From NCBI GenBank assembly GCA_028710155.1, contig JAQUSR010000004.1, forward strand, positions 1 through 39,519: a DNA stretch of 39,519 nt, given 5' to 3'. The notes below the pieces were generated by a model. It was not told where the DNA came from, searched no databases, and saw only the letters and a list, made by a program, of their open reading frames with translations. The stretch is from Bacteroidales bacterium (lineage in GTDB: Bacteria; Bacteroidota; Bacteroidia; Bacteroidales; WRLA01). Below, piece after piece: positions 26,930 through 35,555 of the stretch; within the stretch, counting starts at the first letter, position 1; every line of letters starts with the position of its first letter. The translations under genes and the position numbers were made by a program.

Positions 26930-27928
26930 ATGTCATTGAAAGTTGGAATTAATGGTTTTGGAAGAATCGGTAAATTAGTGTTTCGACATATTTTCGGTCA
27001 AACAGATATGGAAGTAGTTCATATTAACGATAAAATGAACACACAATTAATGGCTCATTTGCTCAAATACGATAGTTTGCACGGGCGTTTTGATGTCGAC
27101 ATCTCTTTCGATTCTAATCATTTGTATGTTAATCATAAAGAAATTTTAGTCACCAATTTTCCCTCGCCGGAAGAAATTCCGTGGAGCAAAACCGATGTTG
27201 ATATTGTTGTCGATTCATGCGGAAGGTTTAAAACGCGTCCGCTATTGGAAGGACATCTTCATAATGGTGCCAAAAAAGTAATTTTGAGTTGTCCGCCAGA
27301 CGATAACTCAATTGAGCGGACGGTGGTCATGGGCGTTAATCATTCTACCATTCAACCCACCGATTTAATCATTTCAAACGCGTCTTGCACAACTAATTGT
27401 GTTGCATTGATGCTGAAAGTGGTGAACGAAGTATTCGGGTTTAAAAAAGGCTTTATGAATACCGTTCATCCCACCACCAACAACCAAAATTTGCAAGACG
27501 GTTATCATTCCGATTTTCGCCGCGCCCGCTCTGCCATCAGCAACATTATTCCGACTACATCCAGTGCCGTGAAAGCCACGCAGTTGGTGATGCCCGAAAT
27601 GCGAGGCATTTTCGACGGTTTTGCAACACGCGTTCCTGTTCCCGATTGTTCGTTTGTGGAGCTGACTGCCGAAATAAAAAGCAACGTTAGCGTGGGACAA
27701 GTCAACGAAGCCTTTATGCATTATGCCAAAACCGAACTTAAAGATTACTTAGAATATACCGAAGATCCGATCGTTAGCAGCGACATTAACAACAACCGAC
27801 ATTCTGCCATTCACGATGCATTGGCAACCCGTGTTTTGGGCGGCGATTTAATTCAAATTCTCGGATGGTACGACAACGAATTTGGCTATTCTTCACGAAT
27901 TGTCGATTTAATTCGATATATTTCGTAA
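26930..27928 (+). CDS. gap: Glyceraldehyde-3-phosphate dehydrogenase (canonical paralogue)
   Basis: Oxidises glyceraldehyde-3-phosphate to 1,3-bisphosphoglycerate with NAD. The 332 residues are of usual length. Seen: the nucleotide-binding GINGFGRIGKLVFRH; an Asp at residue 34 (INDKMN) of the kind that favours NAD; catalytic Cys153 in SNASCTTNC; His180 in NTVHPTTNNQ; IIPTTSSAVKA; and GWYDNEFGYSSR. The usual SAPAK segment is replaced by SCPPDDNSIERTVV, so this is a divergent branch. It is the first gene of a tight three-gene cluster with a PPDK-like protein and a second GAPDH. Confidence 0.9.
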   Translation: MSLKVGINGFGRIGKLVFRHIFGQTDMEVVHINDKMNTQLMAHLLKYDSLHGRFDVDISFDSNHLYVNHKEILVTNFPSPEEIPWSKTDVDIVVDSCGRFKTRPLLEGHLHNGAKKVILSCPPDDNSIERTVVMGVNHSTIQPTDLIISNASCTTNCVALMLKVVNEVFGFKKGFMNTVHPTTNNQNLQDGYHSDFRRARSAISNIIPTTSSAVKATQLVMPEMRGIFDGFATRVPVPDCSFVELTAEIKSNVSVGQVNEAFMHYAKTELKDYLEYTEDPIVSSDINNNRHSAIHDALATRVLGGDLIQILGWYDNEFGYSSRIVDLIRYIS

Positions 27929-32132: not shown

Positions 32133-33377
32133 ATGATTAGCATTAATGAAAAGAAACTCTTAGGTATCAATGGTTTAGGACGCATTGGTAAACTTTCGTT
32201 GTGGTATCACCTGATTTCACGAAAATTTGATGGCGTTGTCATCAATGTCGGACGTGAAGTGGGAAAAAGTCTGGAAGACTTGGTGCAAACCATTATCACC
32301 GACTCCACGTATGGTTCGTTGCAATTTTTTGTAAACGGAAGAGCAGGGAAACCGCTCAACATCGAAATTACCGACCAAGAGCAACAAATTATTACCATAG
32401 ACGGTTTTCCGATAAAAGTGTTATCGAAAGAACGTAATCCGCAGAACATCAATTGGAAAGATGAAGGCGTTCGCGTTGTTGTTGATTGTACGGGAAAATT
32501 TTTAGATCCCACCATTCCGGCAACCGATCCTAAAGGAAGCATTTTGGGACACTTGAATGCCGGAGCCAGCAAGGTGATTTGCAGTGCACCGTTCAAAATG
32601 AAAAATGAACCCGTCGGAGAACCATTTCCGACTTTGATTTACGGTATTAACCACACTTGTTTTGATCCGTTGCATCATAATGTTATTTCGGCAGCCAGCT
32701 GCACCACCACCGGATTAGCGCACATGATGAAACCACTGCTCGAAGACAAAGAAACCTGCAATGTTTTAACAGCATCATTATCAACCGTTCATGCAGCAAC
32801 CAATACACAAAGCGTTTTGGATTCTGTTCCGTCTGCAGGCACCAAAGATTTGAGAAAAAATCGTTCGGTATTGAATAACATCATTTTGTCTTCAACCGGT
32901 GCTGCCAAAACATTGGAAAAAGTGATTCCGCAAGTCATTCATTTTGGTTTTATGGCAGACTCGATTCGCATCCCGACTACCACCGTTTCGTTGATTGCAT
33001 TGAACATTACCTTCAGCTCGCGAATGGACGAAAATAGTATGCCTTACATTAGCGGCGATTATATTCGCAACATTTACAAAATGGCCGAAAAAGGCAATCA
33101 AAACGGATTGTTGTTCTACTCGGCAAAACAAAATGTATCTGCCGATTTGATGGGAAAACCTGCCGCCATCGTTATCGAAGGCAATGAAATTCATACTCGT
33201 ACAGGATTTTTGAAAGTGCCGTCAGAGATTTTGGCAGCCGCCGGAATACAAAATATTCAAGACATCAATATTCCCGTTACCCACGCCAAAATCATGGGTT
33301 GGTACGATAACGAATTTGGCAGTTATGTCAATTGCTTAGGTCACTTGACAGAATATGTGGCTTCACACATCGATTAA
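32133..33377 (+). CDS. Divergent glyceraldehyde-3-phosphate dehydrogenase paralogue
   Basis: This 414-residue protein is about 80 residues longer than usual GAPDH. Catalytic Cys190 (SAASCTTTG instead of S-C-T-T-N-C) and His220 (STVHAATNTQ) are kept, as is the GWYDNEFGSYVN end. The dinucleotide motif GINGLGRIGK is present. However, the acidic residue that binds the NAD ribose is missing: the second strand reads VVINVGREVGK where INDP-type sequence is usual. This points to NADP use, altered cofactor, or a non-catalytic role. The phosphate-site segment is also changed (RKNRSVLNNIILSSTGAAK). It is the third gene of the gap-dikinase cluster. Its stop lies only 6 nt before the first CRISPR-like repeat. 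Confidence 0.82.
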   Translation: MISINEKKLLGINGLGRIGKLSLWYHLISRKFDGVVINVGREVGKSLEDLVQTIITDSTYGSLQFFVNGRAGKPLNIEITDQEQQIITIDGFPIKVLSKERNPQNINWKDEGVRVVVDCTGKFLDPTIPATDPKGSILGHLNAGASKVICSAPFKMKNEPVGEPFPTLIYGINHTCFDPLHHNVISAASCTTTGLAHMMKPLLEDKETCNVLTASLSTVHAATNTQSVLDSVPSAGTKDLRKNRSVLNNIILSSTGAAKTLEKVIPQVIHFGFMADSIRIPTTTVSLIALNITFSSRMDENSMPYISGDYIRNIYKMAEKGNQNGLLFYSAKQNVSADLMGKPAAIVIEGNEIHTRTGFLKVPSEILAAAGIQNIQDINIPVTHAKIMGWYDNEFGSYVNCLGHLTEYVASHID

Positions 33378-33383
33378 TCGCTT

Positions 33384-33504
33384 GGTGTGATTTGCTTTCA
33401 AAAATTGTACTTTTGCAGTCGTAAACAACTGCTTATTAAATAAATTGTCTGAAAAACAGTTGTGATTTGCTTTCAAAAATTGTACTTTTGCAGTCGTAAA
33501 CAAC
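33384..33504 (+). CRISPR. Two-repeat CRISPR remnant, type II-C-like (46-bp repeats, 29-bp spacer)
   Basis: Repeat 1 (33384-33429) and repeat 2 (33459-33504) are 46 bp each, differ at one base (position 2), and enclose a unique 29-bp spacer (33430-33458). The period of 75 is usual for type II-C arrays. The repeat opens GTTGTGATTTGCTTTCAAA and ends AAACAAC; from memory this opening is shared with Bacteroidota Cas9 arrays such as that of Bacteroides fragilis. Repeat 2 contains TTG and TACTTTTG 20 nt apart, so it could start its own crRNA. Repeat 1 keeps only the TACTTTTG (33408-33415). After repeat 2 no third repeat follows at the expected place. No cas gene lies in the window. Confidence 0.65.
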
Positions 33505-33587
33505 GCTGTATCTAACTATTTGTTTAGAAGTAAAAAAGAACGTGAAATATGGATTATATGGAAAAAGAAACTTTTAAAATTCTGTAA

Positions 33588-33665
33588 TTAAAAATAAGAG
33601 AGCGACACCAATTAGATGCCGCTCTAGGGGGGTTCCGGCCATCTCTTTCGAGGTTGACCGGTACC
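33588..33665 (-). ncRNA. Candidate small structured RNA between repeats 2 and 3
   Basis: The minus strand has a -7 element TACTTTTG (33678-33671), then a GC-rich hairpin (33661-33635) capped by a GAAA tetraloop (CTC-GAAA-GAG). A C-rich stretch follows, then a terminator: a 9-bp stem with one G-U pair (33625-33617 with 33607-33599) and the tail CTTATTTTTAA. The predicted RNA is about 75 nt. The GC content is far above the surroundings. It has no coding frame of note. I do not recognise the family. An alternative reading is the tail of a tracrRNA whose anti-repeat would be the minus strand of repeat 3. Confidence 0.5.
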
Positions 33666-33670
33666 GCCGG

Positions 33671-33678
33671 CAAAAGTA
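33671..33678 (-). promoter_or_regulatory. -7 element of the candidate small RNA
   Basis: Read on the minus strand this is TACTTTTG. A TTG on the same strand at 33703-33701 is 22 nt upstream, a slightly long spacing. Confidence 0.5.
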
Positions 33679-33703
33679 ATACTATTTTTTAAACAAAAAA
33701 CAA

Positions 33704-33749
33704 GTTGTGATTTGCTTTCAAAAATTGTAATTTTGCAGTCGTAAACAAC
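33704..33749 (+). repeat. Orphan CRISPR-like repeat 3
   Basis: A 46-bp copy identical to repeat 2 except for one C-to-A change. The embedded promoter is kept (TTG at 33705-33707, 20 nt, TAATTTTG at 33728-33735). It has the same orientation as repeats 1 and 2, 199 bp after repeat 2. A coding fragment opens within 7 bp of its end. Confidence 0.8.
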
Positions 33750-33755
33750 GGGTGA

Positions 33756-33986
33756 ATTGTTGGAACTTTAACGCTCACTGAGATAGAGAAGCCCGGTATT
33801 AGTGAGCGAAACGACACCGTGAAACGGGTATGCTACAGTTATCGGTTGATGCGGAGTTATGTGCGATATTATTTAAAATACACTCCCGATGTGATGGATA
33901 AAATGAGTGTTAGGCAGCTTACAGAGGCCTTTCAAGATGTGCTTTTTGTTAGGAGCAGACGGTCGAGATTTGAGCCGGAGGAGTGA
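33756..33986 (+). pseudogene. 5'-truncated phage-type gene fragment
   Basis: A 76-codon frame begins right after repeat 3 and ends at a TGA at 33984. It has no ATG until codon 32 (33849). The translated end (RSYVRYYLKYTPDVMDKM, then SVRQLTEAFQDVLFVRSR) is a credible protein, not random sequence, and lies just upstream of a tape-measure-like start. This suggests the C-terminal part of a small phage tail gene cut off at the repeat. A GTG at 33819 could serve as start of a 55-residue protein, so truncation is likely but not proven. I cannot name the family. Confidence 0.5.
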
Positions 33987-33990
33987 TAGA

Positions 33991-34182
33991 TTAAAAAACC
34001 TTTTTGAAAATAGAATAAAAGAGATATAACAAATAGAGCACAATGGATGCTATCATCAAGCCAAAGAGATCGAAACAATAGGCTATGAAGCAGATTTCAA
34101 GTAGTAAAATCGTTAAGACCACCCATTTTGTTAAAGAAGGGAAAAACGAATAACAAATTATAAAAACCAATAAAGAACACAT
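33991..34182 (-). CDS. Small two-span membrane protein, opposite to the flanking phage-like genes
   Basis: This 63-residue, very hydrophobic protein has two likely membrane helices (about residues 3-27 and 36-58) and a basic end FKKVF. It is on the strand opposite to the phage-like fragments on each side. A -7 element TACCTTTG on the minus strand (34215-34208) lies 26 nt before the ATG, which supports a real, independently transcribed gene. The pattern is that of a phage moron gene. No function can be assigned. Confidence 0.45.
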   Translation of the reverse strand: MCSLLVFIICYSFFPSLTKWVVLTILLLEICFIAYCFDLFGLMIASIVLYLLYLFYSIFKKVF

Positions 34183-34207
34183 AATTTTTTGATTTAAAAA
34201 TTTTCGG

Positions 34208-34215
34208 CAAAGGTA
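34208..34215 (-). promoter_or_regulatory. -7 element for the small membrane protein
   Basis: Read on the minus strand this is TACCTTTG, 26 nt upstream of the ATG at 34182. No TTG at the expected distance. Confidence 0.45.
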
Positions 34216-34228
34216 AAAAAAACATATA

Positions 34229-34636
34229 ATGAGCGATAATACCGTAAAATATTCTATTCAGATTATTGATCAATTTGGCAAAGTTCTTGAAAAATTTTAT
34301 AAAGGGATTGATGGAGCAACCGAGAAAGTTGAAAAATTTGATAAAACGATAAGTAAGCAAAAAAAAGACCCTTTTAATACACAAAAAAGGTCGCTTTCCG
34401 AGCTGAGAGAAAATGTAAAACGTTATCAAACAGCAGCCGAAAATTCGTTCCGTTTGGATCATATAAAAAAATACAACAAGCTGATAGAGGCGACCCAAAA
34501 AAAGATAAAAAACATAGAAGATGCTGCCGAAACATGTAAACAGCGTACAGAAGATATGTTTGACGAGAAAGGAGTTGTGATTTGCTTTCAAAAATTGTAC
34601 TTTTGTAGTCGCGGTAATAACCATTATGGAAATTGA
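34229..34636 (+). pseudogene. N-terminal fragment of a phage tail tape-measure-like protein
   Basis: The frame starts with MSDNTVKYSIQIIDQFGKVL and runs through Lys/Glu-rich helical sequence (KRSLSELRENVKRYQTAAEN...YNKLIEATQKKIKNIEDA), the style of a tape-measure protein N-terminus. Tape-measure proteins are normally several hundred to over a thousand residues. Here genuine coding stops at about residue 115, where repeat 4 begins (34574), and the last 20 codons are the repeat read through in frame. The gene is therefore 3'-truncated at the repeat and non-functional as a tape measure. Confidence 0.6.
34574..34611 (+). repeat. Truncated CRISPR-like repeat 4
   Basis: The first 38 bp of the 46-bp repeat are kept with one C-to-T change; the last 8 bp are replaced. 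The embedded promoter is complete (TTG at 34575-34577, 20 nt, TACTTTTG at 34598-34605). Orientation is the same as repeats 1-3. It marks the right edge of the phage-like segment. Confidence 0.78.
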
Positions 34637-34961: not shown

Positions 34962-35555
34962 ATGAACGAAGAAAAACAAAACAACGAGGCTTTTGACGAG
35001 CTGTCGGATTCACAAAATGAGTCAACGGAAAATGTAGTCGAGCCAACAAAGGAAGAAAAACAGGAGCCGGAACAAAAAAAATCGAGAAAAGAGAAACGTC
35101 AGCAAAAACAAGTCGAAGAATTGGAGAACAAAGTAGCTGAATTGAACGACAAATATTTACGTCTTTTTTCGGAATTTGATAATTATCGCAAACGTACAGC
35201 CCGCGAAAAAATAGAAATGAGCAAAACGGCTTCTGAAGGTTTGATTCAAGATCTTTTGCCGGTTCTTGACGATATGGAACGTGCTTTGGTGAATATTCCC
35301 GAAGTGGAACAAAACAAAGAACTTCGTCAAGGGGTGGAACTCATCTTTTCCAAATTTTTGAAAATATTGGAAAACAAAGGTTTGAAAGCTATTGAAGCCA
35401 AAGGTTTGGATTTTGATACCGATTTTCATGAAGCCATCGCCAAATTTCCGGCACCGACGCCTGAACAAAAAGGTAAAGTAATTGATGATACTGTGCGTGG
35501 TTATATGCTGAATGATAAGGTGATACGTTTTTCAAAAGTGGTAGTCGGAGAGTAA
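34962..35555 (+). CDS. grpE: Nucleotide exchange factor GrpE
   Basis: Releases ADP from DnaK and works with DnaJ, encoded next. The 197 residues have a Glu/Lys-rich disordered start (1-45), a long dimerising coiled coil (about 46-95, VEELENKVAELNDKYLRLFSEFDNYRKRTARE), the helical segment with LLPVLDDMERAL, and the C-terminal beta domain (GLDFDTDFHEAI...GYMLNDKVIRFSKVVV). dnaK is not in the window. The upstream 330 bp is the accessory island. Confidence 0.96.
   Translation: MNEEKQNNEAFDELSDSQNESTENVVEPTKEEKQEPEQKKSRKEKRQQKQVEELENKVAELNDKYLRLFSEFDNYRKRTAREKIEMSKTASEGLIQDLLPVLDDMERALVNIPEVEQNKELRQGVELIFSKFLKILENKGLKAIEAKGLDFDTDFHEAIAKFPAPTPEQKGKVIDDTVRGYMLNDKVIRFSKVVVGE

Follow-up and report, generated by a model that had tools for sequence, protein, structure and literature searches.

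In a 39,519-nucleotide stretch of Bacteroidales DNA (the window), we found 824 bp of phage tail DNA in a spacer position between two direct CRISPR repeats, with the phage gene at either end cut at the repeat. The window is contig 113 of a 214-contig, 2.26-Mb assembly with a completeness of 93.5%. The finding is unusual because it recurs: two further genomes, G304 and G042, carry phage slices between cognate repeats, and the three belong to three different families of the order Bacteroidales. Most likely, identity between spacer and protospacer joined array and phage at both ends, whether in the cell, through recombination, or in the course of assembly, through the path that the assembler took. 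The structure is thus either genuine, an unusual capture of viral DNA, or an error of genome assembly that recurs.

The array consists of a 46-nt repeat, GTTGTGATTTGCTTTCAAAAATTGTACTTTTGCAGTCGTAAACAAC, present in four direct copies (R1 to R4) that span 33384-34611 in the same orientation between a GAPDH-like gene and grpE. Its units and flanks are listed here.

32133..33377 (+): GAPDH-like gene, the left flank, which stops 6 bp short of R1
33384..33429 (+): R1, type II-C CRISPR repeat, with one substitution at its 5' end (GG for GT) relative to R2
33430..33458 (+): ordinary spacer of 29 nt; the norm of the sampled arrays is 29-30 nt
33459..33504 (+): R2, CRISPR repeat, the reference copy
33505..33703 (no strand): first oversize 'spacer', 199 nt, with a frame open from R2 (AVSNYLFRSKKEREIWIIWKKKLLKFCN, then stop)
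33704..33749 (+): R3, CRISPR repeat, with one substitution relative to R2 (C27A)
34574..about 34611 (+): R4, CRISPR repeat, degenerate at its 3' end from about 34606 on
34962..35555 (+): grpE, followed by dnaJ; the right flank

The gaps from R1 to R2, R2 to R3 and R3 to R4 are 29, 199 and 824 nt. One of the three is regular and lies in the 29-31-nt range of spacers; the intervals of the two oversize units are 245 and 870 nt. R1 to R4 hold the sole copies of the 24-nt repeat core in the 2.26-Mb assembly, and a reversed control pattern gave no match. The left-flank GAPDH-like gene is absent from the corresponding place in the congeners examined, and gene order near grpE and the second GAPDH gene is not conserved among them, so there is no empty site to compare. 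The two GAPDH-like genes of the window (26930-27928 and 32133-33377) are separated by about 4 kb, and a pyruvate phosphate dikinase-like gene lies in the interval. Of the eight nearest relatives searched, a single one has a match to the second gene at 59% identity; matches in the others are 34-38% identical.

The DNA between R3 and R4 is a contiguous slice of the tail module of a contractile-tail phage. It comprises the following features.

33750..34573 (+): contiguous phage tail-module fragment in spacer position, 824 bp, assigned by homology to phage relatives
33751..33771 (+): end of TAC, the tail assembly chaperone (last 6 codons and stop, GELLEL-stop; compare DGQLEEL-stop in L127)
33756..33986 (+): TAC-T, which extends TAC in the -1 frame; a stretch of 52 residues is closely similar to L127
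33991..34182 (-): antisense open reading frame for a small membrane protein of 63 aa; analogous frames lie in the same place in L128, L129 and G210
34208..34215 (-): TAnnTTTG promoter box of the antisense gene, TACCTTTG, from sequence inspection
34229..34573 (+): first 115 codons of a tape measure protein, homologous to L127, G210 and G372

Searching IMG/VR with a profile of five tape measure N-termini returned five contigs (L127-L131), and the closest relative of the window protein was that of L127, 41% identical over residues 1-112 (E 9e-24). L127 (IMGVR_UViG_3300020048_000979) encodes sheath, tube, chaperone, tape measure and baseplate hub, and its full tape measure protein matches PHROG tape measure families. 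Prophages in other genomes of the order (G210 and G372) also encode relatives of the tape measure N-terminus. The alignment of TAC-T with L127 (RYYLKYTPDVMDKMSVRQLTEAFQDVLFVRSRRSRFEPEE against RYYLKYTPEVLDKMTITQLSEAFNDIEYVRSKRSRFEPED) scored 194, and the best of 1000 shuffles scored 55; TAC-T-like extensions are also found in G210, G167 and G372. In the window, the end of a tail assembly chaperone gene and its frameshift extension stand directly upstream of the tape measure gene. Its gene order, including the optional antisense membrane gene, is that of the contractile-tail (myovirus-type) modules of Bacteroidetes in L127, G210 and G372. Unlike these modules, the window has only an 824-bp slice, with both end genes cut by CRISPR repeats. 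The sheath, tube and baseplate genes that L127 carries are absent around it.

The edges of the slice coincide closely with the repeats. Homology to the L127 tail module starts at 33751, within 1-2 nt of R3, and ends at a conserved FD at about 34561, some 12 nt before R4. About 98 N-terminal TAC codons are missing from the fragment, and neither the continuation of TAC nor the remaining 580 or so tape measure codons were found elsewhere in the window's assembly. In the phage relatives L127, L128, L129, G210 and G372, the junctions between TAC, TAC-T and tape measure are native and free of repeats. The first-pass annotation had described about 824 bp of phage-like DNA framed by two direct CRISPR-like repeats that cut both phage-type genes and share one orientation, as if part of a phage tail operon had taken the place of a spacer; this description is supported. 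We found the repeats in place and in one orientation, and the homology to L127 bears out the phage assignment. That annotation also had R4 interrupting a tape-measure-like gene after about 115 residues, as the homology of this N-terminus to L127, G210 and G372 confirms. It had read one 5'-truncated frame after R3; a truncated phage gene is present, but as two overlapping frames, the TAC end and its -1 extension. We also looked for a relative with the repeats inside its tail operon, which would have undermined the description, and found none; nor do the fragments lack phage homology, since both have phage homologues. The proposed search for an intact phage with the two genes side by side gave relatives such as L127 with native junctions, but not the source phage: the tape measure and chaperone fragments matched nothing in the INPHARED phage collection, and IMG/VR held no match to single proteins or to exact pieces of either oversize segment.

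An antisense small membrane gene with a TAnnTTTG-type promoter lies between tail chaperone and tape measure in several Bacteroidetes phages (33991-34182 on the minus strand of the window, about 6560-6680 in L046, and upstream of the tape measure in L128 and L129); it is absent from L127. This gene is a candidate for expression in the lysogen, for example in superinfection exclusion.

The window repeats are members of the type II-C CRISPR family with long repeats in Bacteroidales, in which direct repeats of 46-48 nt carry terminal GTTGT/ACAAC, as they do. The exact 24-nt core also occurs in ordinary arrays with a 76-77-nt period in named Bacteroidales assemblies. A pattern scan found cognate 46-47-nt repeats in 12 of 393 genomes of the order, mostly in regular arrays, and the reversed control found none. 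Rfam models CRISPR-DR49 and DR50 match the same window copies below the gathering score. Cognate arrays adjoin cas2, cas1 and cas9 in G042, G304 and L110; at the G042 locus we identified Cas9, Cas1_II and Cas2_II. In the cas-linked cognate arrays the leader sits between array and cas2, and a tracrRNA-like anti-repeat is present at the cognate array of L103. Repeat and spacer lengths of the cognates agree with those of published Bacteroidetes II-C arrays (PMC5704556, PMC5006608). The window shares repeat length and sequence family with the II-C arrays of Bacteroides fragilis and Riemerella (46-48-nt repeats, 29-30-nt spacers; PMC5704556, PMC5006608). It also shares with Bacteroidetes II-C arrays the one 29-nt spacer and a promoter-like box within the repeat (PMC5704556, PMC5006608); each window repeat holds this Bacteroidetes promoter-like box, TACTTTTG.

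Unlike those arrays, the window has intervals of 245 and 870 nt and no cas genes, and we found no leader or tracrRNA anti-repeat there. No cas1 was found in its 93.5%-complete assembly, where positive controls were detected, and for cas9 there was nothing convincing: the Cas9 model gave a weak match below its cut-off. Because the assembly shows neither gene, we call the array an orphan; it is a decaying remnant of the II-C family with no working system. The search for an anti-repeat beside the array gave none: its one significant match, at 33664-33703, is common promoter sequence. Protospacers of cognate arrays, sought for PAM inference, were not found. L110, a contig of a bin labelled Sulfuricurvum, has cas9, cas1 and cas2 in a II-C locus of Bacteroidales type whose array consists of one repeat; it is probably misbinned, or the array has collapsed. 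At the leader-distal array ends of L104 and L106, from two different bins, the terminal repeat is broken by a near-identical palindrome, GTCGGAGTGCGACTTTAAGTCGCGCCCCGAC, which looks like a small mobile palindrome.

All 180 regular intervals sampled from cognate arrays measured 75-79 nt. Besides the window, the sample held two irregular exceptions, G304 and G042; a long interval in L136 was rejected as a further case, being a run of N. Nor, after inspection, did we count as cases the isolated repeat-like matches in G224 and G325 or the loci L108 and L110, which have one repeat each. G304 has a complete cas9-cas1-cas2 locus with 18 identical repeats and a leader-distal repeat with two substitutions, and between this variant repeat and the regular array lie 610 bp of phage DNA (L144/L182, G304:C39). 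Here a phage virion morphogenesis gene (PF05069 and PHROG 26, both weak matches) with a family-like end, ...YAAVHQFG, is cut exactly at the repeat. A further degenerate repeat lies 459 nt beyond. In G042 (L028 4759-8513, G042:C9) the order is a pair of variant repeats with their ordinary spacer, a 3,632-bp stretch of phage DNA, the regular array, the leader and the cas genes. At one end of this segment a primase-like gene is cut within about its first dozen codons. At the other a minor head/ADP-ribosyltransferase gene is cut and lacks the first 177 codons by comparison with Bacteroides phage Versailles. Two IMG/VR contigs (L147 and L153) carry the segment's four genes in the same order without repeats, so the G042 slice is native phage DNA.

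As in the window, then, the II-C loci of G304 and G042 hold a phage slice between two array repeats, with phage genes cut at the repeats. In contrast to the window, these arrays are cas-linked and otherwise regular, their slices come from other phage regions, and their inserts sit at the old, leader-distal end. The repeats flanking the inserts are unlike each other, with 4 of 46 positions substituted in G042 and 2 in G304; in the window R4 is degenerate. Elsewhere, a Prevotella-labelled bin has a single II-C repeat right after a truncated-looking open frame (L108, about 1160-1220), and this junction may be another of the same kind as the window's.

The 199-nt unit that separates R2 from R3 is possibly a further insert of this kind. 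No homologues of it or of its hairpin RNA were found, and searches that included exact pieces against IMG/VR could not demonstrate a phage origin. Its last 33 nt match many genomes and look like shared promoter sequence. On the minus strand it contains a possible small RNA (33586..33685) with a Bacteroidetes-type promoter (TACTTTTGC), a GAAA-capped hairpin and an 11-bp terminator hairpin. This candidate forms two stable hairpins (MFE z = -4.2) and matches no Rfam family.

The reading that we favour, at a little short of an even chance, is that repeats and spacers of a decaying cas-less II-C array were swapped for the contiguous phage DNA between two protospacers. The 29-30 nt at either end of the segment (33750-33778 and 34545-34573) would be, or would once have been, spacers copied from the phage, so that array and phage would share sequence from each repeat border inward. 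A crossover in each end stretch would then swap the intervening array for 824 bp of phage DNA. We infer that the exchange took place in the cell, where the donor may have been a linear fragment released by Cas9 cutting at both protospacers. This model yields exact framing, contiguous phage DNA and flanking repeats that differ, the last because the array stretch between the two spacers is lost. It is supported by the II-C identity of the repeats, by the phage DNA abutting both of them, by the fact that neither gene continues anywhere in the assembly, by the native, repeat-free junctions of the phage relatives and by the like anatomy of G304 and G042. Unlike flanking repeats beside 18 identical repeats in G304 are as expected if non-neighbouring repeats were joined, or if only inserts between unlike repeats survive. 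In the latter, alternative reading, inserts between identical repeats would be deleted by recombination between those repeats; the stability of polymorphic terminal repeats has been discussed (PMC8047081). Several points weigh against exchange. The bridging spacers are postulated, since none of the arrays searched held an ordinary spacer of 29-30 nt that equals one of the end stretches. In addition, 30 bp is short for homologous recombination, an assembly path would give identical sequence, and the host assembly, 93.5% complete, now has neither cas1 nor cas9. Ectopic spacer integration and rearrangement by repeat recombination (PMC8047081) likewise leave irregular arrays with polymorphic terminal repeats, but what these known events move or add is spacers of unit length and not phage segments of a kilobase.

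The same identity between spacer and protospacer could also have acted during assembly, a candidate that the first-pass annotation did not list and that we regard as doubtful but a serious contender. Array and phage would merge in a short-k graph, and the assembler would exit through one spacer, run along a phage from the sample and return through a second. Exact repeat framing on both sides follows automatically from such a path. CRISPR arrays confuse short-read assembly, and many cognate arrays stop at contig ends; the window itself comes from a 214-contig assembly, and all three cases could be metagenome bins. Yet the path needs two exact spacer matches, on the same strand and in order, to a phage of the same sample, in three genomes. 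The G042 and G304 inserts are leader-distal, where spacers are least likely to match current phage, and the window array lacks cas genes and its repeats are decaying. Moreover, the 3.6-kb detour in G042 exceeds usual insert sizes, and the window's assembly has no leftover contig with the repeat.

Aberrant acquisition, in which Cas1-Cas2 put a long prespacer (199, 824, 610 or 3,632 bp) directly at the repeat, seems to us improbable. In its favour, the enzyme that breaks into DNA precisely at the edges of repeats is Cas1-Cas2; half-site integration has been documented (PMC6895254), ectopic integration inside arrays is known (PMC8047081), and the window's two longest units lie on the side where cas-linked relatives have the leader. 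Against this, the complex measures prespacer length, all 180 regular intervals sampled are 75-79 nt, and we found no description of a kilobase spacer in the open-access literature. A spacer made by Cas1-Cas2 should have the length that the integrase dictates and start out between two identical repeats. The window segment is 824 nt long with R3 differing from R4, which is degenerate, and the flanking repeats differ at 4 positions in G042 and 2 in G304.

We give very little credence to an ordinary prophage remnant, a transposable or other temperate phage that entered a spacer and eroded to 824 bp ending at the repeats by chance. Temperate phages of such a kind do occur in Bacteroidales genomes, and no other phage genes are left near the window fragment. 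Random erosion, however, would hardly be expected to end about 1 nt from one repeat and about 12 nt from another, and G304 and G042 would call for this coincidence again.

Hardly credible at all is that the repeats belong to the phage, as a phage-borne mini-array or as the prophage's own promoters, the latter suggested in the first-pass annotation. The promoter-like box in each repeat would fit, but a box of this kind is described for II-C repeats generally, no related phage locus has a repeat (L127, L128, L129, G210 and G372 have the same junctions without one), R4 would destroy the tape measure gene, and the repeat family is that of cas-linked II-C arrays; we rejected both forms. Integron-like cassettes were also considered as a reading and rejected.

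We found no description of kilobase phage segments between CRISPR repeats in the open-access literature. There is a substantial chance that the structure reflects a recurrent assembly error; such an error would be recognisable and would make false phage-host chimeras in public genomes. Either way, the signature is simple to search for: phage genes that break off exactly at a CRISPR repeat at each end. If the structure is real, protein-coding pieces of phage, hundreds to thousands of bases long, can reside in CRISPR arrays, where spacer-detection tools would overlook them or break them up, and there would be a route for DNA exchange between immunity loci and the phages they target. A broader proposal, which we hold tentatively and think rather unlikely, is that, in living cells, II-C arrays of Bacteroidales repeatedly acquire phage fragments on the kilobase scale at their spacer positions; such fragments might, for example, be released by Cas9 when it cuts one phage at two protospacers and be rejoined through matching spacers. 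If that were so, these arrays would be capture sites for phage genes besides stores of 30-nt memories.
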